Positions 2,263 through 25,003 of a stretch of DNA of 25,003 nt are shown here, one piece after another. Source of the stretch: a virus; IMG/VR virus record IMGVR_UViG_3300035633_000069, positions 1 through 25,003 of that record, one strand, 5' to 3'. Both the position numbers and the translations under genes were made by a program. The stretch's first letter is position 1. The number at the start of each line of letters is the position of its first letter. The notes under the pieces are model-generated. The model saw nothing but the letters and a program-made list of their open reading frames with translations. It did no database searches and was not told where the DNA came from.

Positions 2263-5200
2263 TTATGGTTGAATAGCGTTGATCAATGCTAATGCACCAA
2301 GATTCTTGACTTTCGGTGTTCTTAACGGTGTCTCAGATGCAAGAACCACCTTGATTGCATATACGTTAAACTGATCATACACGATGTTGTTTGATGTGTA
2401 TCGTGCACCACCGTTTGTGCCGGGTCGAATCGTATTATCTGACAATCTGTCAAATGTCACGAATTCGAGTGGTAGATAGTCACTTGAACCAATCGACACT
2501 TCATCGGGGTTAGTTGATTCATACATCAGATTCCATGGTTTGGTTTCGAATAAATCCGGGTCTTCTGATGCTTTAACCTTGTAGTACACATATACTTGTG
2601 TTCCTTGTGGTCTTAACACGTCCATCTTCACTTTAAGATCGCGTGACTCAAATCCTGCATTCAACTGAACACGTCTTGATACATACTTCGAAGATGCAAT
2701 ACCGCCAGATGAGTCTTCTTCTGATCGAATTGTAACCACCAAACCTGAACCAGTAACAACATCAGGCACCAAGTTCGGTTTACGTACAACACGAATCGCT
2801 TCTTCACCTGTATCAAGTGTCAAACCTTCAACTACATTCGAAGTTGTTGGCACCAATGTCCCATAACTTTCACCTGTAACCGGGTCTTGTAACAAGAATG
2901 TGTCCGCAACTGAGTAACCAGAACCGCCCGCTTCGATAGTGATATCGTTTTCGGGATTCAGTGCCAGATTGTCAATGATGTTCTGAACAAAAATGACATT
3001 CATCTGTTCTGCATCGATCATTGGTGATATCATGTCTGTGTTTGTACCAAATGACACACGAACTCGGAAATCTGCGGCAGATGGCAACAAACCTCCACGA
3101 ATCTTCAACAGACTTGGCGCTTGTACGTTCTGATTGACAAGCAACGGTTGATATGTCGAATCCTGATTGACAGTAACACCATCAGGAGCAACCACACCAC
3201 GAATAACTGAATATTCCGGCTCGATATCATCCGTGAAATCACGTATCTGTGGAACATTCACTTTGTACAGATTATATGTGAAGTAACTGTTTGTTAGTGC
3301 TGCATCATAGTTGAAATACAATGAGTCTTCTTCTGTCTTAAACGATACAAGTCTTTCCAACTGTGTGTTATCAAAGTCTGCATAGAAATCGCCAGTGTAT
3401 GTTCCTGTTTCAAACCGAACACGATTCAATCTGAACATCATGTCTTCTTCCTGATATGCTGTCCATGTTGATGAGTTTTGTGACTTGAACATCACACCCG
3501 CGTACGGTTGTTTTGACTGAATACGTGAAGTTTGCAAACCAGTATTCGGGTCAATGACTCTTTCGCCGATTCTTGAAGTATAGACCTCATAATTTGTTGT
3601 GTTGGTCAACACAACAAACGAATATTCACCCGGAGTCAGATAGATCGGTGTTGAGAACTTAAATCGAGTGTAGTTCTCAATTGCTGGTGCATCATTTGCA
3701 ACTACTTCTTCGGGATATAGTTCAACTTCACCAAAAGGCATCACTTCTGTACTTGAAGGATAACCATTTCTTACTGGACGAATCTGTAATGTAACGGGCA
3801 CTGTAGTATCGCGTGATGTGAACCACAAGTCTACTGAATGCAAATACAATCCAGATGGGTAGTTTCCTTCATCGATCAGAAAGGTTTGTGCCAATGGGTC
3901 TTTCCATCTAACTCTGCCTCTCCGTGCACCACTTAAAGTTCTGTCTCTTGATGAACCGGAAACAGCTGTTGGTACCGGTGAAACACCAAGTGATGATACA
4001 CCCGTTTGTGGTAATGAAGATGTGTCAAGAGTTTGTTGTGTAAATTGATTAATCAATGATTTTGGTGCATCAAAAATGAAAGCACCACCTAATGTTGATA
4101 GTTCAGCATTTGCAATCTTTCTCTCACCATAAACGATTCGGGATTCCTGAACTTCGGTATTCTTGACTACCGGAACTCTCGTTGTTATGATTTGTTCCTG
4201 TAATGTTTTCTGAATACCTTCCGAAACGAAATCAGCAGAAGCGGTTGACTTTGATTGAATATCGATATTGCTTGCTTGGTCTGTCAGTTTGAAACGTCGT
4301 TTTCCTGTCTTAAACTGTGTACCATTATCGGGAATGGTGAACACACCACATACAGCACCCGTTTCATCTGATTTCAGTCGGTATGTACCATCAGCAGGAA
4401 TATACTGTTGCGTAAGAACACCACTGATACTACCAACAAGATTCGGTAGAGCTGTCAGACTGTACGTTGTTCCATTTGCCAAACCTTCAACACCTGTTTT
4501 TGATACACTATCAAATGACACTCTAAAGTTGTTTTGTGTAAACTTCGGTACCAAATGGAAGTTCACATGATTCAGTGTTCTTGTCACTTTGAGTATCTTT
4601 ACATCAAAACCGTTCAGAACAGGAGTTGCTTCAAGTGCTTCTTGACGATCAAAGTATGAACTATTTGTACTGAATAGAGTTCTTAGTTCTGCGGTCAAAG
4701 GTACTCGAAGTATTACTGCTGATACGATATTGCTTGAAACGTTTTCATCATCAAAGAATGGATAGAAAATCGTGTTTGGTTTGATACTTCGAGCACGGAA
4801 TGCTATTGACAATCCGGGTCTCATGAACGGAATAACACTGGTATCGATAACTCTCTCGCCCAAACTCTGTGATTTACTTTCAAATGAGAATGATTGTGTG
4901 TTACCTGTTCGTCTTTGAGACTGCTGTGACTGAACAACTTCAGCAGTAAGTTCTCTGTCAAATGAGGCAGTACCAATATTGATTGGTGGTAGTTGGAATG
5001 ATACTGTGTCAGATGCCGTTGAAGTCCATTCTGTTTCCCAGTTGTTCCATTTTGTTCGTGATGGAGCAACATTGATTTGGTCCTGTAGAAGACGATATGC
5101 TTCGTTTGTACCAGAAATGTTGGATACAACGTCCGGGGCACGAATGATATCTTTCCAGAAGTCTTTTGATGGATCAAGTGTAATAACACCATTCCAACTG

Positions 5201-8200
5201 ATAACTGCAAACGGGTTAACATTTTCAGTCCGTGTTGCAACAGTCTGAGTCACAAATGGGAATGGATTATCATCGTCATAGTTCGATAATAGAATGCCAT
5301 CTTCTGTGATGAATGCAGTTGAGTTGACACTTGTTTCATCATATTCCATGCTAAAGGCATATTGATCAAACTGTGCCCGCATTTCACCTCTCTGAAAGTC
5401 TATAGCTGCTTTGTAATCTGGACTGATTACGTTTGACACGTCTTGATTTTTGAATGTATCAACCAACACACCCGTCTTGAACAATGACACATTGTCTTTG
5501 TCCGTCACTTCGGTTTGTAGAATAGCATTTTCTATTTTGTCCAATCGAACAGTATCTTCAAGAATCTTTAATCTTTCATCGATTTCAGATATGTCTTTCA
5601 TGGTGTATCGGTTGTGACGATACGGTATCTTTTCCACGTCACTTGCAGTTGTTGAATATGGTGAATATGTCACGTCATACAACACAAGTGATCTATCTTC
5701 GAGTTGTGGATATTCGGGAGTCAATGACGGTATACCCTGTAACACTCTAAACTGTAGATCGTTTGTGATGACTACCTTATCACGTCTTGCAACATAGTAG
5801 GATACATCACACTCGAATGTGGAGTTGTTAAGAGCATGTGGTACGTACACCTTTGAATCAAACTCGATATCCTCTGTAAAAGATGTTGTCGATGTGTAGT
5901 TGATTGCTCGTGGTCGGAAGTCAACCGTTTTTCGAAGATCATATGATCTATTAGATGAAGTCTTGATCAACGGTAGAAAATCGTACAACAGTTCGTTATA
6001 TGAGTCAATTGAGTAAAATGTACGTTCAAGTTCTGTTGGTGATGATGTGTTTATTCTGTCAAATACCACTATAATGTCATCACCTGATGTTGGTCTTGCA
6101 ACACCCGGTTTCAATGCAATACGAGTGTGGTCTACAAAGTCTTCTCTTTGACCAAAGTCAATGAAGAATCGATTCGTGATATCAGTGTAGTTTGACAAGT
6201 CGTTTTCTGGAAGTACCGCTGCACCGCCCTGTGTTGGATCATAGAACACTTTCACACGAACTGCAAATGACACACCGATAGAAATGTATTGACCAGCAGC
6301 GGGTATGCTATCAACCGGAATACGTGCTTGGTTATCTGTAACTGTATCAAGAGAAATAGTTTGATTTACCAAATTAGAGTTAATGGTTTGTCTGTTACCA
6401 TATGCTACAGTTGTATTGATTGGTTGTGCCAACGTACGTCTGACCGGATATGTGATAACCAAGTCATTTGTATCATACGTATTATCAACAAGTCGAATTT
6501 CACCATTTGCAACATCTACTAATGATATGCCTGAAGCGGGAATATCCAAACTTTCGGTTTGATTGTAAATGAGTACTTCAAATTTGTTGTTCAGTAGAGT
6601 TTCATCAGCACGCAAAGTTGGAGTGATGACTTCACCATCAGGTTGCAACGCTTCCCGTTTCATATATGTGTATTCTATGTTTGTCAAGTCTTTTGCAACA
6701 GTGTCAGAAATGTTGAAAATCAATGGTTTCTTATTGGTTTCCTGAACAATAGTTTCAGTGTATCCATCACCATCTTGATCGATCTGAATGGAATCGACAA
6801 CATCATAGAATATTCCACCATCATCAAACTCAACCGCTTTGATATTCAGAGAATTGTATGTAAGAGTCAATGTAGTTGAAGGTAGAATATCTGATGTAAG
6901 TGGTGTATCAAGTGTAGCTTCGCCAGCACCGGTATTAACTGCAATAATCCGATAACGTGTTCCATTAAATGTGAATGTTGCACCAAGATGTTCTACAGCG
7001 ATGTTGGTTGACAGAAGAGTTGTTGTACCTACTGTACTTGTGTTCGTTGTAGTAGCCAAAGTAGTTGTATTGAATGATGCATTGAAGAAATACAGTTCAT
7101 ATTTGTCGTTTGTAGACTTCTTCAACTGACGTGTGTATGCTTGACCGATTTGAAGGTTGTCGTTTACATCTGAGTAAAAGTTGACTATTGAACCAAGTGT
7201 CACGTCCGTTAGTGTTAAGTCACCAACTGTAGCAGTTGATGGATCAAGTACAAGATAGTTACCAAATGAAACGTTGATCAGTTTGTCTTCTTCCGATTCC
7301 AAGTGTCGGTCTGTACGAGTTTTTTCTAATGCAAGTCGCGTTGTTCCAGTTGTTGAAAGTTGTCGTCCTGCAATGTACGCTTTACCCGGTGTCAGTTCTG
7401 CAAGATACAGATTATTGTCGAAAATCTCGATTGTGCCTGATAGAGTCAAGAATGAAGGCATCGAGTTGACTGTAATGGTGAACAGATTGAGATTCAAACC
7501 GTCCTGTACTGCATTAGTGATACGAAATGGAATATCATCAAAAGTAAATGTTTTGTCTATTAAGTCTGATATCTGAAATGTTGTCAGTGTCAAGTCAACA
7601 TCAACACTTGTTGATCCTTGTGTGTGTGACACAACTGCCATGTTAAACACCTTGAATCTCTCAAGTGTCATCTTGAAGTCATTGATTACAAAGTCACCAT
7701 TGATATCATATGTTCGATTTGCGATTTCGTTTCCGAGAACACTGAATTCCGGTCTCTCGCGACGATCTACAATATCGCCTTCGATAACACGACCGATTTC
7801 ATAGAAGTCTTCTGATGTGGTGTTATCAAACTCAGTTGCACCAAGTATCATATCCTTTGCATCAAGAATCAAATCGATCTTGAATCGGTGTGCACCCGGA
7901 GCGTTTTCGTTTGGAGAACCAGCAGCGTTGTCAAGTAGTGAGTTGTCGTCACTCTCTACAACAATCGATTCAACAATGTTGAATCCGACACGTGCAGAAC
8001 GGGTGGTTGTGTACTTCGAATACGGTATTGTCTGTGGTGATACAAGAACAAAGAACCCATTTGTGTAGAAGATACCATTGCTGACTGATGCTAACTGACA
8101 ATCGCCTGAGAAGTTCGCACTCAATGTTCCATATGATTGACTGTAAGTTTCTGTTAGATCGTCAAACAGAAACAACTCATCACCAGCAGCAAACTCGGTA

Positions 8201-8829
8201 CCTGTTAGATATTGACCAAACAGTGTTGGCGGGTCTGAACCGGTAATAGTAGTGAAACCCTGTACGAGAAATACGGGTCTTTCTTCACGATCATCTGTCG
8301 GATCAGCATTCAGTGAGATTTTCGCGTTGATTTCAAACACCGCGCCTGTAGCACCAACTGTTGCATTGAAGTTAGTTGTTAAGATTTCTCCAAAAAATCC
8401 AGATGGTATATTACTGTTGATTAGTGAAAGACCAAATGTGTTATTCGCACCAAAAGTCGCAATGATGTTATCTGTTCCGTTTGTCAGCAACAACTGATCG
8501 TTGATCTGGTAGTTCTCGCCCTCATTCTTCAATGAAATGAGAGTAGATAGTGTATCCCAATCAATGGGTGCAGAAAGAGAACCATCATCCAACTTGATGT
8601 AAGTCGCATCTGTGAGAGAAAGATTTGAACCAACGACTACGGTACCATCCTCATAAATCGAAGAACCAAATCGTTCGACCTGATTTTGTAGAATGGTTTG
8701 TAGTTGTGTCAGTTCTCTTGCTTGAACCGGAAAACCGGGTCGAAACAGAATTCGAAGAAATTTCTTGTTTTCATCATAATCGTCAAAATATGGTGAAACA
8801 TTGAAATTTGTAGTCAAATTGCGAGCCAT
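2263..8829 (-). CDS. Giant virion structural protein resembling DUF4815 (2188 aa)
   Basis: The longest gene of the window. The N-terminus (FRPGFPVQARELTQLQTIL, residues about 29-47) is the hallmark of the protein family I know as DUF4815, found in marine T4-like and other large myophages. The later family pattern is also present. Residues about 1070-1130 have YTMKDISEIDERLKILED followed by TGVLVDTFKNQDVSNVISPDY. Residues about 1640-1670 have DPLAQTFLIDEG...GLYLHSVDLWF, with LQIRPVRNGYPS after it. A GGSGYSVADTFLL segment lies near residue 1963. The body is beta-rich with no transmembrane helix. A TTGGAG ribosome binding site precedes the ATG. By position it follows gp8, where T4 has gp9/gp10/gp11, so a peripheral baseplate or fiber-platform role is likely. 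Family resemblance is strong; precise function is inferred. Confidence 0.85.
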   Translation of the reverse strand: MARNLTTNFNVSPYFDDYDENKKFLRILFRPGFPVQARELTQLQTILQNQVERFGSSIYEDGTVVVGSNLSLTDATYIKLDDGSLSAPIDWDTLSTLISLKNEGENYQINDQLLLTNGTDNIIATFGANNTFGLSLINSNIPSGFFGEILTTNFNATVGATGAVFEINAKISLNADPTDDREERPVFLVQGFTTITGSDPPTLFGQYLTGTEFAAGDELFLFDDLTETYSQSYGTLSANFSGDCQLASVSNGIFYTNGFFVLVSPQTIPYSKYTTTRSARVGFNIVESIVVESDDNSLLDNAAGSPNENAPGAHRFKIDLILDAKDMILGATEFDNTTSEDFYEIGRVIEGDIVDRRERPEFSVLGNEIANRTYDINGDFVINDFKMTLERFKVFNMAVVSHTQGSTSVDVDLTLTTFQISDLIDKTFTFDDIPFRITNAVQDGLNLNLFTITVNSMPSFLTLSGTIEIFDNNLYLAELTPGKAYIAGRQLSTTGTTRLALEKTRTDRHLESEEDKLINVSFGNYLVLDPSTATVGDLTLTDVTLGSIVNFYSDVNDNLQIGQAYTRQLKKSTNDKYELYFFNASFNTTTLATTTNTSTVGTTTLLSTNIAVEHLGATFTFNGTRYRIIAVNTGAGEATLDTPLTSDILPSTTLTLTYNSLNIKAVEFDDGGIFYDVVDSIQIDQDGDGYTETIVQETNKKPLIFNISDTVAKDLTNIEYTYMKREALQPDGEVITPTLRADETLLNNKFEVLIYNQTESLDIPASGISLVDVANGEIRLVDNTYDTNDLVITYPVRRTLAQPINTTVAYGNRQTINSNLVNQTISLDTVTDNQARIPVDSIPAAGQYISIGVSFAVRVKVFYDPTQGGAAVLPENDLSNYTDITNRFFIDFGQREDFVDHTRIALKPGVARPTSGDDIIVVFDRINTSSPTELERTFYSIDSYNELLYDFLPLIKTSSNRSYDLRKTVDFRPRAINYTSTTSFTEDIEFDSKVYVPHALNNSTFECDVSYYVARRDKVVITNDLQFRVLQGIPSLTPEYPQLEDRSLVLYDVTYSPYSTTASDVEKIPYRHNRYTMKDISEIDERLKILEDTVRLDKIENAILQTEVTDKDNVSLFKTGVLVDTFKNQDVSNVISPDYKAAIDFQRGEMRAQFDQYAFSMEYDETSVNSTAFITEDGILLSNYDDDNPFPFVTQTVATRTENVNPFAVISWNGVITLDPSKDFWKDIIRAPDVVSNISGTNEAYRLLQDQINVAPSRTKWNNWETEWTSTASDTVSFQLPPINIGTASFDRELTAEVVQSQQSQRRTGNTQSFSFESKSQSLGERVIDTSVIPFMRPGLSIAFRARSIKPNTIFYPFFDDENVSSNIVSAVILRVPLTAELRTLFSTNSSYFDRQEALEATPVLNGFDVKILKVTRTLNHVNFHLVPKFTQNNFRVSFDSVSKTGVEGLANGTTYSLTALPNLVGSISGVLTQQYIPADGTYRLKSDETGAVCGVFTIPDNGTQFKTGKRRFKLTDQASNIDIQSKSTASADFVSEGIQKTLQEQIITTRVPVVKNTEVQESRIVYGERKIANAELSTLGGAFIFDAPKSLINQFTQQTLDTSSLPQTGVSSLGVSPVPTAVSGSSRDRTLSGARRGRVRWKDPLAQTFLIDEGNYPSGLYLHSVDLWFTSRDTTVPVTLQIRPVRNGYPSSTEVMPFGEVELYPEEVVANDAPAIENYTRFKFSTPIYLTPGEYSFVVLTNTTNYEVYTSRIGERVIDPNTGLQTSRIQSKQPYAGVMFKSQNSSTWTAYQEEDMMFRLNRVRFETGTYTGDFYADFDNTQLERLVSFKTEEDSLYFNYDAALTNSYFTYNLYKVNVPQIRDFTDDIEPEYSVIRGVVAPDGVTVNQDSTYQPLLVNQNVQAPSLLKIRGGLLPSAADFRVRVSFGTNTDMISPMIDAEQMNVIFVQNIIDNLALNPENDITIEAGGSGYSVADTFLLQDPVTGESYGTLVPTTSNVVEGLTLDTGEEAIRVVRKPNLVPDVVTGSGLVVTIRSEEDSSGGIASSKYVSRRVQLNAGFESRDLKVKMDVLRPQGTQVYVYYKVKASEDPDLFETKPWNLMYESTNPDEVSIGSSDYLPLEFVTFDRLSDNTIRPGTNGGARYTSNNIVYDQFNVYAIKVVLASETPLRTPKVKNLGALALINAIQP

Positions 8830-15849: not shown

Positions 15850-17490
15850 TCACTCATCCCTTATTCTGCCTACACACAACAATAGACGCATATTGGTTTC
15901 AAATAACTCAATAGTGTTATCGTCGATATTGTATGTGTTATCTCCATTATTTGTAAGTACTCTAATAACCTTATTGTTTGCAAGTAGATAGAATGTTGAC
16001 GGTGATAAGTCTGTATCTGTTGTTAGTACTCCATTGACAATGGAATCCACATGGATTAACTCTGATGATGGTGGAATAATATCCGATTGCAACGATGATG
16101 AGTTGATACTTCCCGTCCGATCAAATATGCTATCGTCACCTTCTCTTGTATCAAACGTCTGTATTCGATACAGATAGTTTTTACCATGTTCAACCGTTGA
16201 GTCTGTAAAAGAGAACTCCACAAATGTTTGTTCTTCGTTTGGTGTGACATGCCATGCAATGGGATTGGTTGAGTCGCCCAGAACAATAGTGTTTTTCAGA
16301 GTCGGTGTGACTTCATTTCGATAGACGCGATACTTGTTTGCAAAAAGCGTACCAAGAAACGATAATACCAATGAAGTGTTATCATCACTTGAAACAACTG
16401 ATAAAATTTCAGGAGTTGTGATCCATTCATCTGATTCTATCAAAAAGATATCAAATGCACCGTTAGCGATTTCTTCTTGTTCGGTAGAGTCTTCAATCGA
16501 TGATAGAAAACTGTTTAATGCAAACTGTGGACCAAGCGGTTTACCAATGTTTTGATCTAACCAGAAATATCGATACTTGGTAAAATCGTTCTCAATGTCT
16601 GAACCTATGATATTCAATGCATCATCTTTTCGTGTCTCAAAGAATGGTTTTTCGGCATTCAAATCGCTGATGAGTGTAAGAAGATCGGTCGTTCTATCCT
16701 GTTCAGTTGTGAATCCTGTTTCAAAATAGTCTCTACGTTCTTTGAGAAAATCACGAAATGCAACTATGGTTGTGAACACAGTTCGAATACCAACCTTTTC
16801 GTCAGCGATCTTTGCGAAAAACGGTCTGTCATTTCGAATGTTCAAGTCTGTAATCAACGTGTTGGTATTGTTCAATATACCATCAATGTATCTCTCTATG
16901 TCACGCGTGTTGTTGATCAAATCAACCGCAACTGCGATTGTGTTATTGAATGCAGTCTCTAAAGTACTATTCCAAAATGTGGGGTTGTCCGGTCCAGCTG
17001 GTGCACTCAAATCTTCCGTACGTGCATCGTAAAGTGCTTGTGCTGCACTTGTGATCGTGTCTATGAGATTGTAAATGCCATCCGTGAACATGGTCAGTGG
17101 TCGATTTGTGGTCAACACTATCGCGTTCGTGTTCAGTTCAAGAGCAGCAAAACCATTACTGTCAATCGGAAAGATTGCCTCAGAGTTGACACCACCATAT
17201 GTCGATATCACGTCAGAGGAATCACCATCACGGGTTGACGCAATCTCTTGTCTGTTCACCCAAAAGTCATTATTCGGGTCTCGTATGGATGGTTCAGTTG
17301 TATCATACCCAAATGCGAGATATGCGTGTTCTGCCCACAATGATATCGCTCTGTTGATTTCAAACAGATACGTGTTGTTCAAATCGATTTCTCCCTGAAA
17401 CTCATCACGCGAATCTAAAGCGTTTTTCTTGGTAATGAGTGACAGGTTTCTTTTCTCTTTCAGTTGTGCAATCTTGATTTCAATCGCCAT
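15850..17490 (-). CDS. Unknown structural-region protein between gp5 and gp25 (546 aa)
   Basis: I do not recognise this protein. The N-terminal 300 residues look largely helical: the start MAIEIKIAQLKEKRNLSLIT is charged, and a later stretch reads ERYIDGILNNTNTLITDLNI. The C-terminal 180 residues look like beta sandwich, with NKYRVYRNEV and NYLYRIQTFDTREGDD reminiscent of fibronectin-type-III strands. It has no signal peptide or transmembrane helix. It starts 3 bases after the gp5 stop and ends at a terminator, so it is the last gene of the gp48-53-hub-gp5 unit. Co-transcription with hub genes suggests a baseplate or spike-associated component; this is inference only. Confidence 0.75.
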   Translation of the reverse strand: MAIEIKIAQLKEKRNLSLITKKNALDSRDEFQGEIDLNNTYLFEINRAISLWAEHAYLAFGYDTTEPSIRDPNNDFWVNRQEIASTRDGDSSDVISTYGGVNSEAIFPIDSNGFAALELNTNAIVLTTNRPLTMFTDGIYNLIDTITSAAQALYDARTEDLSAPAGPDNPTFWNSTLETAFNNTIAVAVDLINNTRDIERYIDGILNNTNTLITDLNIRNDRPFFAKIADEKVGIRTVFTTIVAFRDFLKERRDYFETGFTTEQDRTTDLLTLISDLNAEKPFFETRKDDALNIIGSDIENDFTKYRYFWLDQNIGKPLGPQFALNSFLSSIEDSTEQEEIANGAFDIFLIESDEWITTPEILSVVSSDDNTSLVLSFLGTLFANKYRVYRNEVTPTLKNTIVLGDSTNPIAWHVTPNEEQTFVEFSFTDSTVEHGKNYLYRIQTFDTREGDDSIFDRTGSINSSSLQSDIIPPSSELIHVDSIVNGVLTTDTDLSPSTFYLLANNKVIRVLTNNGDNTYNIDDNTIELFETNMRLLLCVGRIRDE

Positions 17491-21248: not shown

Positions 21249-21719
21249 ATGAAACGGAAACTGCCCGCTGATCCAAATCGCAAACCATACAAAGGAGTAT
21301 ACACAGTCAAAAAACCGGAGAAATATCGCAACAATCGCAAACCGGTATACCGTAGTACATGGGAACTCCAATTCATGAAATGGTTGGACTCAAATTCTAA
21401 CGTGGTATGGTGGAGTAGTGAAATGACTGTCGTTCCTTATATCTCCAAGTTTGATGGTCAATGGCACAGATACTTCGTAGATTTCACTGTTCGATTCAAT
21501 GACGGTAAAACATACCTTTTCGAAATCAAACCTGAAAAACAAACTAAACCACCATCTGATCGAAAACGCAAAACAAAACAACATCTGATAGAAGTTAAGT
21601 CATATGCTATTAACATATCAAAATGGGAATATGCACAAAAGTATGCAGAAAAAAGAAATTGGATATTTCAGATTCTAACTGAAAAAGAACTCAAAAAAAT
21701 AGGAATCAAGATTCTGTAG
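21249..21719 (+). CDS. 4: Head completion protein gp4 (156 aa)
   Basis: Acts at the portal end of the filled head before tail joining (T4 genes 4/50). The protein closely follows the T4 gp4 pattern and length (150 aa): KGVYTVKKPEKYRNN, VYRSTWELQFMKWLD, PYISKFDGQWHRYFVDFTVR and LFEIKPEKQ. It shows a TnsA/Mrr-like PD-(D/E)XK arrangement with E39, D78, E92 and K94, so it may be a nuclease that trims DNA. It is the only plus-strand gene inside the minus block. No Shine-Dalgarno is visible before the ATG, and no other start codon fits. Its 3' end overlaps the opposing tail-tube-like gene by 14 bases. Identity is firm; catalytic activity is inferred from residues. Confidence 0.9.
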   Translation: MKRKLPADPNRKPYKGVYTVKKPEKYRNNRKPVYRSTWELQFMKWLDSNSNVVWWSSEMTVVPYISKFDGQWHRYFVDFTVRFNDGKTYLFEIKPEKQTKPPSDRKRKTKQHLIEVKSYAINISKWEYAQKYAEKRNWIFQILTEKELKKIGIKIL

Positions 21720-22386
21720 ATGATGGGTCGATATTTTCGTAATCTCGCCAATTGAATGTAATCGCGCATGTGCCATATGTATCAGTTTCGCCATAACTCA
21801 TTTCCACATCACCAACAGTTATTGGATACACTTCTTTGAAGATATACGTACGTAGAATTGTTGTCTCTGTATTATCACGTGCACGTGGTATGAAGCCGCC
21901 GAAACCGGTTCTTTCTTCTACTGACGTTATTATATCAATCGTTATGGTGCCCACATAATCATCATAAAATCTTGGTTTGTAATTCCGATCATTCTTACCA
22001 GTCATTTGATTGATCCAATATTCGAAGTAAGATCGTTCTCTTAGATCACGACTCAGAATGAAGTTAATAGCAAGTGGTTCAGGGTTTGCGCGACCTTTCA
22101 CAATTGGTATCGATTCAGCACTGTCAATCGGATAATCGACTGTTGATGCTGTGATTGGCGGCAATGTGGCCCTTTCTGCTCTTAATGACAGATTTTGTAT
22201 TTCAGATGCAAGTTCATCTCGACCGAAAACGCCTATATTAGTTCGAACAATGCCAAAACCTGTCGGAGAAACAGTTGATTCAGCGCCAAACAATCTGTCT
22301 GGAAACTGAATTCTCACTATGTAACTGTGTGGTTTGAAAATGCCTGTTGTACTTAATGTCTGTACCATGTCTGAAATACTAAGCAT
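21706..22386 (-). CDS. Tail-tube-fold protein, gp54/gp19-like (226 aa)
   Basis: Likely a tube initiator or tube-type protein joining baseplate and tail tube. The N-terminus has KPHSYIVRIQFPDRLFG. The middle has LSLRAERATLPPITASTVDY, as in tube proteins where this strand leads to the inter-subunit loop. Next come SYFEYWINQMTG and YDDYVGTITIDII, and it ends with IFKEVYPITVGDVEMSYGET followed by CAITFNWRDYEN. That closing pattern (aYP-x-x-(V/I)-x-x-(V/D)-x-x-SY...F-x-(W/Y)-R-x-Y) is characteristic of the gp19/gp54/gp48 tube fold. It is longer than gp19 (163 aa) and shorter than gp54 (320 aa). An upstream CGGAGTG ribosome binding site supports the start. Fold assignment is good; the exact name is open. 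Confidence 0.7.
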   Translation of the reverse strand: MLSISDMVQTLSTTGIFKPHSYIVRIQFPDRLFGAESTVSPTGFGIVRTNIGVFGRDELASEIQNLSLRAERATLPPITASTVDYPIDSAESIPIVKGRANPEPLAINFILSRDLRERSYFEYWINQMTGKNDRNYKPRFYDDYVGTITIDIITSVEERTGFGGFIPRARDNTETTILRTYIFKEVYPITVGDVEMSYGETDTYGTCAITFNWRDYENIDPSSTES

Positions 22387-22397
22387 GTATCACTCCG

Positions 22398-23006
22398 TTA
22401 CTTTTTGGCCAATCTTTGTGATTCTGACCAAACCCTCTTAGCAGTCTGTTTTTGGAATTTCTCAGTTGGAAGAAATAACGCAACCTGCCATTCCTGTGGA
22501 TCAATCTGTATGAACCGACTCTGAACTTTTGAGAACAGATATCGTTTCAGAGTAGGTTTGAACAGTCGATACTTTTTGGCACCTGACAACAACTGATACG
22601 ATATTCTCAGTTTGGCACGTTCATTCAATCTCTTATCTGAAAGGGTTGATGACAAACGGTCCATCAATCGTGCACGAAGTCTTGGTGATAGATAATGCAA
22701 GTTGATACCAAGAAAACCATCTGAATACATCTCAACAGGGAACACAAGTGGAAATCGATCCCAATATGGTAGTTGATCTTTCAACTTTGCATCATATATG
22801 AAATGGTACATTCGACCAATAAAGACTCGTGCTTTTGCTCTTTCACGGTCTGCGATAAAAGACCGTGTGGATACACTCTTACCACGAACCGTTCTTTGAA
22901 CTCGTATACGAAACCATCGAAGTGATCTACCAGTCAATTTGTTCAGTTGGTTTGCGTTTTCTGCTTGGTTCAATATGTCTGTGAAGATTGATGTACCTAT
23001 CGCCAT
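22398..23006 (-). CDS. Conserved T4-type phage protein, candidate DNA end protector gp2 (202 aa)
   Basis: A basic, Arg/Lys-rich protein. Distinctive segments are ARVFIGRMYHFIYDAKLKDQ, LPYWDRFPLVFPVEMYSDGF, LGINLHYLSPRLRARLMDRL and a C-terminal VALFLPTEKFQKQTAKRVW. I recall this pattern from marine T4-like phages, where I believe it is annotated as gp2, the protein that protects the packaged DNA end from host RecBCD. The proximity to gp4 agrees with the T4 order 3-2-4-53. No transmembrane segment is present. The ATG has TAGGAT 4 bases upstream. The high positive charge fits a DNA-contacting or head-plug protein, but the gp2 name is from memory and tentative. Confidence 0.6.
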   Translation of the reverse strand: MAIGTSIFTDILNQAENANQLNKLTGRSLRWFRIRVQRTVRGKSVSTRSFIADRERAKARVFIGRMYHFIYDAKLKDQLPYWDRFPLVFPVEMYSDGFLGINLHYLSPRLRARLMDRLSSTLSDKRLNERAKLRISYQLLSGAKKYRLFKPTLKRYLFSKVQSRFIQIDPQEWQVALFLPTEKFQKQTAKRVWSESQRLAKK

Positions 23007-23064: not shown

Positions 23065-23787
23065 ATGTCATTACCAAAAATGAAAGTTCCAACATTTTCA
23101 CTCAACCTTCCAAGTTCGGGTGAAGAAGTGATCTATCGTCCGTTTACTGTGAAAGAAGAAAAGGTTCTTCTAATAGCAAGAGAAACATCAGAAGAAAAAT
23201 CCCAAATTCGAGCAATGAAACAAATCATAAACAACTGTGTGATTAAACCAGAAGATTTTGATGTTGATCATTCACCATCATACGATCTTGAATACATCTT
23301 CTTAAAGTTACGCGCAAAGTCAGTTGGTGAGAAAGTCAAGATTCTGTTGTACCCGCAAAAAAGGAAAAATCTACCATCAATGGAAACCGAAATCAACATT
23401 GATGAAATTGAACCAAATATCGATCCTAATCATACGAACATCATTGAGTTGGGCGATAACATGAAACTCAAGATGAAAGAACCCACATTTGAAGTGATTG
23501 CAGGATTGTCTAATACTGCATTATCGATATTAGATTTGTTCGGAATGTGCATTGAATCGCTTTATGATGGTTCAACAAAACACGAATTTCAACTGTACAG
23601 TAAAGAAGAAATCGACGAATGGATCGAAAGTCTGAATGGTGAGAGTCTACAGAAGATACAGAACTTCTTCACCACTCTACCGAAATTGAAAAAGGAAATC
23701 GAATACAAATGGGTCAATCCAGATGATCCAACTGATACACACACTGAAACGATTGTGTTAGAAGGATTGTTAAGTTTTTTATCATAG
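23065..23787 (+). CDS. 26: Baseplate hub assembly protein gp26; N-terminal part of a predicted -1 frameshift pair (240 aa)
   Basis: T4_baseplate-family (gp26) protein needed for hub assembly. Family features are LPKMKVPTFSLNLPSSGEEV, YRPFTVKEEKVLLIARE, MKQIINNCVI, DLEYIFLKLRAKSVGE and the C-terminal LEGLLSFLS, which matches the common 'GL-x-x-FF' ending. T4 gp26 is 208 aa. A late promoter and a GGAG ribosome binding site support the start. The codons AGT TTT TTA before TCA TAG make the slippery heptamer T TTT TTA in phase. A -1 shift there would give a 302-residue product, 239 residues of gp26 plus 63 residues from the next ORF. It precedes a tape-measure-like gene, as G/GT chaperones do in lambda-type phages. 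Confidence 0.9.
   Translation: MSLPKMKVPTFSLNLPSSGEEVIYRPFTVKEEKVLLIARETSEEKSQIRAMKQIINNCVIKPEDFDVDHSPSYDLEYIFLKLRAKSVGEKVKILLYPQKRKNLPSMETEINIDEIEPNIDPNHTNIIELGDNMKLKMKEPTFEVIAGLSNTALSILDLFGMCIESLYDGSTKHEFQLYSKEEIDEWIESLNGESLQKIQNFFTTLPKLKKEIEYKWVNPDDPTDTHTETIVLEGLLSFLS
23775..23781 (+). other. Predicted -1 programmed frameshift site T TTT TTA
   Basis: The heptamer fits the X XXY YYZ rule in the gp26 frame and is the same as the HIV-1 gag-pol slip site. It lies two codons before the gp26 stop. The -1 frame continues ATC ATA GGT CTC without a stop into the small ORF. An AAGGA element (23762-23766) ends 8 bases upstream, similar to the internal Shine-Dalgarno that stimulates dnaX frameshifting. 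I see only a weak downstream stem (AAATG/CATTT around 23815). Confidence 0.7.
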
Positions 23788-23813
23788 GTCTCTCACACAT
23801 CAATTTGAAGGAA

Positions 23814-23972
23814 ATGTACCATTTGAATTTTGCGTTGATGCAACATCACAAGTATTCATTAGAAGAAATCGAAAATATGATACCCTTTGAACGGGAAATA
23901 TACACCGTATTTCTGAAAAACCATATGGATAAGGTGAAGACTGAAAGAGAAAAACACAACAAAAAGAAGTAA
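23814..23972 (+). CDS. Small ORF after gp26, likely expressed as the -1 frameshift extension (52 aa from its own ATG; 63 aa as extension)
   Basis: A short charged helical protein, MYHLNFALMQHHKYSLEEIE then NMIPFEREIYTVFLKNHMDK, ending in a Lys/Asn-rich tail. The 'hydrophobic-HKYS-x-x-E(I)-x-x-MIP-x-E-R-x-I-Y' layout resembles small ORFs placed after gp26 in marine T4-like phages, and the T segment of lambda-type tail-assembly chaperones. It occupies the position where one would look for a gp51 equivalent, but T4 gp51 is much longer (249 aa). Its frame is -1 relative to gp26 and open back through the slip site. The nearest AAGGA ends only 1 base before the ATG, poor spacing for independent initiation. 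This favours synthesis as a gp26 fusion. The stop is 3 bases before the next gene. Confidence 0.75.
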   Translation: MYHLNFALMQHHKYSLEEIENMIPFEREIYTVFLKNHMDKVKTEREKHNKKK

Positions 23973-23975
23973 ACC

Positions 23976-25003
23976 ATGGCAGATGCACAAGCTTTATTTG
24001 ATATGATGAAAGAAAACCTCGAATCTCTTAAAAACAGTATGTTGATCAACAATGAAGCACAACGACAAACTGCTATAAGAGTCAATACTGGTACTATTCA
24101 AACGAACTCAACATTGATGGAAATCAACAACACTCTTAAAGCGCAACTCGATTTCACAAGGAAACTCGAAAAAGAACAGGAGTTTGAAAGTGATACGGCG
24201 TCACAAAAAATGGATGTTGACAATCTCAATATTGACGCACAAAATGTGACTCCACCCGAATCGAAAAGTGAGAAAAAAGGTGGTGGTGGTCTTCTCAAAG
24301 CACTAGGTGGTTTGTTAGGAGGCGCTGGTGGTTTCTTAGGCGGTATTGGTGGAGCAGCTGCTGGTATCGCATTGCCTCTTGTGGCTGGTTTGGCAATGCT
24401 GTTGTTTGGTGGCGGTTTTCTCATTGATAAAATTGCCAACATGGATGCACAAGCAATCAAAGATAATGTTTTGGTGCTATTGTCTATTGGTGATGAATTT
24501 GCTGGCGGTTCATTAGAATTTCTCGCTGAAGGCGGAGCGTTCTTTGTCGCCATGTTAGGTATTGGTATTGGATTGGCTGCCTTTGCATTAGGTTCAGGTG
24601 TTGCAGCTGCCGTTGATTATTTCACTTCGGGTCGAGATTGGGCACAAAGCATTGTTGACAATGTTGTTACGTTGTTGTCAATTTCAGATCATCTTGGTGG
24701 TGTAGCCAGATTGATAGGTAGAAGTGCTGGATTTTTGGTTGCTATGATAGCAATTGGAGCTGGTCTTCTCGCATTTGCGATTGGTCAAGGTGTCGCTGCA
24801 ACTACCACTCAAGTATCATCTGCGATTGATACCTTTACTGATGGTACAAGATGGAGCGAAAGAATTGTAGACAATGTTGTTACGTTGTTGTCGATTTCTG
24901 ACGAACTTGGTGGTGTTGGAAGATTATTAGCCAGAAGTGCTGGATTTGCTGTTGCTATGGGAGCAATTGCACTTGGTCTTGTTGCGTTTGCGATTGGAGA
25001 AGG
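23976..25003 (+). CDS. Tape-measure-like tail protein, partial (first 342 codons)
   Basis: The gene starts at ATG 23976, 3 bases after the small ORF, and runs off the right edge. Residues 1-85 are polar and coiled-coil-like (ALFDMMKENLESLKNSM, STLMEINNTLKAQLDFTRKL). After a Gly/Ala linker (GGGGLLKALGGLLGGAGGFL) come hydrophobic, membrane-like segments in repeats of 65-71 residues, with DNVVTLLSIS, LGG and RSAGF-x-VAM-x-AI in each. Position directly after a G/GT-like chaperone pair, long open frame and alternating coiled-coil and hydrophobic segments suggest the tail tape measure (gp29 role), which spans the tail tube and can insert in the host membrane. I see no match to T4 gp29 itself, so another internal virion protein is possible. 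Confidence 0.7.
   Translation, partial: MADAQALFDMMKENLESLKNSMLINNEAQRQTAIRVNTGTIQTNSTLMEINNTLKAQLDFTRKLEKEQEFESDTASQKMDVDNLNIDAQNVTPPESKSEKKGGGGLLKALGGLLGGAGGFLGGIGGAAAGIALPLVAGLAMLLFGGGFLIDKIANMDAQAIKDNVLVLLSIGDEFAGGSLEFLAEGGAFFVAMLGIGIGLAAFALGSGVAAAVDYFTSGRDWAQSIVDNVVTLLSISDHLGGVARLIGRSAGFLVAMIAIGAGLLAFAIGQGVAATTTQVSSAIDTFTDGTRWSERIVDNVVTLLSISDELGGVGRLLARSAGFAVAMGAIALGLVAFAIGE
24444..25003 (+). repeat. Tandem 65-71-residue hydrophobic repeats in the tape-measure candidate
   Basis: Units begin near 24444, 24639 and 24852 (offsets 195 and 213 bases, both whole codons). Units two and three share long near-identical DNA, such as GACAATGTTGTTACGTTGTT in each copy. The first unit is diverged (IKDNVLVLLSIGDEFAGG). 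The third is cut by the window end, so more copies may follow. Confidence 0.85.

Follow-up and report, generated by a model that had tools for sequence, protein, structure and literature searches.

gp26 and the Overlapping Reading Frame

The window, that is, the whole stretch of 25,003 nucleotides that was analyzed from virus record IMGVR_UViG_3300035633_000069, carried near its 3' end a gp26 gene (23065 to 23787, plus strand) of 240 aa. The product matched PF12322 (E 2.3e-48) and phrog_150 (E 1.9e-53), and these matches and its AlphaFold2 model point to the short form of a tail assembly chaperone. The 3' end of gp26 read GAA GGA TTG TTA AGT TTT TTA TCA TAG. In it a slippery heptamer of the X XXY YYZ type, T TTT TTA (23775 to 23781, plus strand), lay in the phase of gp26 as a candidate -1 frameshift site, and the TAG stop of the short form (23785 to 23787, plus strand) was found 3 nt past the heptamer. 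The -1 frame was open throughout from ATC at 23781 to TAA at 23970 to 23972, so that the heptamer, its phase and the open frame agreed with what the first-pass annotation had described. This extension (23781 to 23972, plus strand; 63 aa plus stop) would be the C-terminal domain of a long form of 302 aa, composed of 239 gp26 residues and 63 new ones, in agreement with the forms of 240 and 302 residues proposed earlier. The expected frequency of such a heptamer at a Phe-Phe pair, estimated from the usage of Phe codons and the base in front of them, was about 0.2; a single heptamer could thus be fortuitous, and the evidence lies in its conservation.

Within the -1 frame, a small ORF with its own ATG (23814 to 23972, plus strand) would be annotated, and has been annotated as its own gene in many records. 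An AAGGA ended one base upstream of that ATG, a distance too short for a good Shine-Dalgarno, and this bears out the poor spacing remarked on in the first-pass annotation. The extension matched phrog_634 (E 2.4e-20) and the end of phrog_150. In 566 phage records, tblastn homology to the extension started from residue 1 or 2, upstream of any ATG, and homology in the -1 frame therefore began at the slip site, where gp26 ends. Just after the slip site, the most variable codon position between relatives was the third one of the -1 frame. The first ATG ranged among relatives from residue 5 to residue 58. It was at residue 13 or later, inside the conserved domain, in 78/193 clusters (at residue 22, within the motif FALMQHHKYSL, in 45 of the 78), and 51 of the 78 were also without GTG or TTG before residue 13; 4/193 clusters had no ATG at all in the domain.

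A separate gene, using its own start or stop-restart coupling to make a free "gp51" hub catalyst, with the heptamer being incidental, would be compatible with the ATG and nearby AAGGA, with the separate annotation, and with the TAATG or TGATG overlap present in some relatives (e.g., KVP40 and PhiW-14). Nevertheless, the one-base spacing, the beginning of conservation at the slip site, and the position of the first ATG within or beyond conserved parts of the domain in the 78 clusters all argue against it, as a gene beginning at the annotated ATG would miss part of what is conserved. We regard a separate gene as improbable, and the small ORF is probably not one.

Conservation of the Heptamer Among Relatives

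Relatives were obtained from four sources: with the gp26 of the window, with the C-terminal domain (using retrieval patterns that did not touch the slip site), with a gp26 profile run against viral and genome collections, and from annotated phages. Because the retrieval sets partly overlapped, counts are given as clusters and not as raw loci; they refer to assessable loci, with two genome-collection loci excluded due to masking or truncation.

In all assessable loci but two, T TTT TTC, T TTT TTT or T TTT TTA coincided with the opening two codons of the -1 domain. The heptamer was present at the same place in 193/195 gp26 clusters at 90% protein identity, in 90/92 at 70%, and in 58/60 at 60%. 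Elsewhere in these genes T-TTT-TTN was used at only 4/59 Phe-Phe pairs, and only 9 in-phase T TTT TTN were found in about 14,200 other codons. The conservation of the heptamer is not due to chance. The comparison of related junctions suggested in the first-pass annotation returned a conserved heptamer followed by a conserved C-terminal extension in the open -1 frame across the stop, and the proposal that the pair is general in marine T4-like phages was supported, with the heptamer present in 58 of the 60 lineages. The test suggested there against the pair, on relatives having no slip site but a well-spaced start of the small ORF, did not refute it in any relatives but two.

Both heptamer-less relatives were Ackermannviridae-like. 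The Vibrio phages BX-1 (Ackermannviridae) and D506 were without T TTT TTN and had a -1 frame ORF with TAATG overlap, preceded by GTT TTT or CTT TTC (L033:3200-3420, L035:3110-3335). The domain profile matched the ORF of BX-1 (E 1.2e-5), and weakly that of D506 (E 0.08). Given that GTTTTT is the signal proposed in Vandenendeviridae, BX-1 and D506 may use a different slip site or stop-restart.

Four relatives, the phage Mosig and three contigs, had the stop of the zero frame about 30 nt past the heptamer, vs. the usual 10 (L025:1490-1525, and L096, L107 and L118, each 1301-1334), with the heptamer still at the domain junction.

Two-Gene Arrangement of T4-Type Phages

The first-pass annotation had remarked that T4 genes 26 and 51 are usually annotated separately. 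They are indeed two genes, but their products are paralogs, both belonging to PF12322 and phrog_150, and gp51 is a complete in-frame long form: it consists of a gp26 domain and the same C-terminal domain in one frame, with T4 gp26 as the short form. A profile of the -1 domain, built without any T4-type sequence, matched the C-terminus of 10/10 gp51 tested (T4, E 2.8e-8), and in 9/10 the match started at the second position of the profile, which corresponds to the junction. It follows that the small ORF is not equivalent to the whole of "gp51" and represents only its C-terminal domain. T4 gp51 is a fusion with no free small protein, which is a further argument against the small ORF being a separate gene. 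A separate gene would also give no reason for an invariant heptamer, and the heptamer is missing where it is not needed, in T4-type phages: T TTT TTN was found in gp26 of 0/11 T4-type two-gene phages.

The same phages bear on whether the Phe-Phe pair is kept for the protein, with the heptamer resulting from AT-rich codon use. Phe-Phe was retained in the gp26 of several of them with no need of frameshifting, yet it was encoded by TTC TTT or was without a preceding T. The frameshift-type lineages that have the heptamer had T-TTT-TTN at this place in 58/58, against the 4/59 Phe-Phe pairs elsewhere in the same genes, and the window has Phe-Leu (TTT TTA), so that it kept the heptamer and not Phe-Phe. 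Retention for the protein is accordingly extremely unlikely.

In a gp26 and gp51 tree rooted by midpoint only, all gp51 N-domains fell into one clade (100/99), and a single supported branch (99/97) lay between the two-gene and the frameshift-type phages, with KVP40 and CC2 (Straboviridae) on the frameshift side. Slippage being general elsewhere suggests that it is older than the two-gene state. The 25-kb record, a genome fragment, had one match to gp26 and no second one, and an in-frame fusion was not seen in any frameshift-type relative fetched.

The genes of RB43 (L039:4001-5294) and RCIP0002 (L252:1501-2795) were ordered gp51 (long) and then gp26 (short), on the same strand and with a small overlap, which differs from the divergent T4 arrangement.

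RNA Signals Flanking the Slip Site

Relatives had a Shine-Dalgarno-like GAG GGN about 9 nt upstream of the slip site. At this position GAG was preferred to GAA (43/58 vs. 600/2057 elsewhere; p = 4e-12) and purine-ending Gly codons were commoner at GGN (p = 7e-6), both p-values assuming independence of the clusters at 70% identity, a rough approximation. The window had the weaker GAA variant, GAAGGA (23761 to 23766, plus strand), 8 nt ahead of the heptamer and at the position enriched in relatives, as a possible 5' stimulator. As GGA also codes for a conserved Gly, the Shine-Dalgarno-like element is in part driven by the protein.

Over the 50 nt past the heptamer, folding in relatives was stronger than in shuffles (mean z -1.53 vs. 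about -0.25 elsewhere), and a clear excess of folding was found only there. Codon resampling that kept the -1 frame protein gave z -2.01 vs. -0.33 (p = 5e-13, with the same roughly independent clusters). Consensus folding of 102 loci from the largest lineage, with 93 distinct sequences among them, did not yield one conserved downstream hairpin; stems were present in smaller lineages but at different positions, with no stem common to all, and the proposed downstream RNA element is consequently based on codon-resampled folding. The Rfam search gave no match. The window had no downstream RNA structure by codon resampling (z +0.24) or by shuffling (z +2.02). U UUU UUA is an efficient slip site. 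With its weaker GAAGGA and no structure, the window may rely on the heptamer alone.

We lean slightly toward a three-part signal in which the Shine-Dalgarno-like GAG-GGN about 9 nt upstream and T TTT TTN would be followed by a downstream hairpin, with the hairpin selected as RNA, varying in register by lineage and lost in some, including this phage. Under this model the slip site would be older and more constrained than the stimulators.

The T run could also act at transcription, with the RNA polymerase and not the ribosome slipping to yield both forms. Six consecutive T are about the minimum for polymerase slippage, which would be possible in principle in phage-infected hosts and AT-rich genomes. 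However, the phase of the run is that of an X XXY YYZ heptamer, a C usually ends it after six T (69/80), and the Shine-Dalgarno-like element and downstream RNA structure of relatives fit ribosomal slippage. Transcriptional slippage is thus very unlikely, and slippage of the ribosome is the preferred explanation.

Predicted Fold of gp26 and Downstream Gene

The AlphaFold2 model of the window gp26 had a pLDDT of 93.7. Foldseek ranked 2ob9, the tail assembly chaperone of HK97, first among solved structures, at a probability of 0.63 and an E-value of 0.79, which is weak. A structural aligner gave 3fgx (Z 8.7), 2ob9 (Z 7.8) and 3klu (Z 7.0), with the next structure at 4.3. The match was moderate and limited to gp26 residues 1 to 96, with the similarity to 2ob9 spanning residues 1 to 87. 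Both 3fgx and 3klu are Bacillus-group proteins, presumably of a prophage chaperone type; the sole named function in the top three structural matches, that of 2ob9, was the expected one, tail assembly chaperone. A sequence search of solved structures returned nothing credible, and the HK97 protein, although similar in fold, had no detectable sequence similarity to gp26 and is much shorter.

Downstream of the extension, an ORF of 342 aa running to the window end (23976 to 25003, plus strand), which cuts it, is probably the tape-measure gene. It had no strong family match. In HTVC008M and phiM12 the gene at the corresponding position is annotated as tape measure, and the order is chaperone, extension, tape measure. 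In T4, according to PMC3004832, gp51 is required for assembly without being part of the particle, and it is classed with gp26 as a hub assembly chaperone. The HK97 chaperone-like model and the gene order in HTVC008M and phiM12 favor the role that the first-pass annotation had assigned to gp26, which is probably a chaperone of the tape measure.

Frameshifting in T4-Like Phages

Frameshifting is reportedly conserved in several T4-like groups, with T4 using genes 26 and 51. Vladimirov, Gautam and Davidson (2022, Virology 566:9-15) identified which genes of T4-like phages encode the tail assembly chaperones; as cited by PMC10885494 and PMC12846349, these are the same genes as here, with short and long forms, separate genes in some phages and a poly-T -1 signal in others. 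PMC12846349 credits the 2022 paper with poly-T -1 signals in the TAC-N genes of T4-like phages, and PRFect (PMC10885494) cites it for some T4-like phages having one short and one long gene and no frameshift. In a 2016 review of recoding (PMC5009743), G-T frameshifting had been described as a conserved trait of long-tailed phages, "except T4". The statement of the first-pass annotation that no demonstrated frameshift was known in the T4 group needs to be divided accordingly: frameshifting had been predicted in the 2022 Virology paper, and no experimental demonstration for a T4-like chaperone was found in the literature. The frameshift proposal is correct, its principle was already published in 2022, and this phage is a new example, a further and uncultivated member of the group. 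No statement on how widely the site is conserved, on the fold match or on the RNA signals was found in the literature, although the 2022 Virology paper may contain some of this.

The conservation of the heptamer, the homology across the junction, the T4 control and the fold match lead us to conclude that gp26 and its extension are very probably a chaperone pair of the lambda G/GT type, general in marine T4-like phages, as the first-pass annotation had proposed for this phage. From sequence comparison, it is highly likely that one gp26 gene gives a short and a long chaperone by a programmed -1 slip. We infer that the majority of ribosomes would halt at the TAG at 23785, giving the 240-aa short form, and that a minority would slip one base back on T TTT TTA (23775 to 23781), giving the 302-aa long form. 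On the model of lambda gpG/gpGT, the tape-measure protein made from the gene that follows would be bound by many copies of the short form, and the small number of long forms would, through the C-terminal domain, recruit a tail-tube or baseplate-hub protein to the tape measure.

The pair differs from lambda gpG/gpGT in belonging to a different sequence family and in its heptamer, T TTT TTN, whereas lambda uses another slippery heptamer. It resembles it in the arrangement of a short form and a -1 long form, the latter predicted here, directly before the tape-measure gene, a probable one here (Xu, Hendrix and Duda; PMC5009743). T4 has homologs of the short form (gp26) and of the long form (gp51), but as two divergent genes with no frameshift site. 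In Vandenendeviridae and Andersonviridae (phage Adele; PMC12846349), a conserved open -1 frame is also present at the chaperone end with a poly-T signal, and the downstream ORF is usually annotated separately, as here; their proposed signal is GTTTTT, vs. T TTT TTN here.

A wide misannotation is thereby corrected: records of marine T4-like phages list gp26 either with a small "gp51" as a second gene or without it, whereas both chaperones are very probably products of a single gene. The two forms would be reached by two interchangeable routes, ribosome slippage or, as in T4, two genes, and the T4 proteins that have long gone by the names of hub subunit (gp26) and hub catalyst (gp51) would be tied to chaperoning of the tape measure.

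Other Genes in the Window

Genes for a tail-tube-like protein and a DNA end protector (gp2) were on the minus strand (21706 to 23006), opposite to gp26; the corresponding genes of phiM12 have the same direction as gp26. In the baseplate cluster, an ORF of 2188 aa (2263 to 8829, minus strand) matched phrog_358 (E 0) and phrog_877, which are large structural families of unknown function. An ORF of 546 aa (15850 to 17490, minus strand), without a PHROG match, lay between the gp25-like and gp5-like genes.
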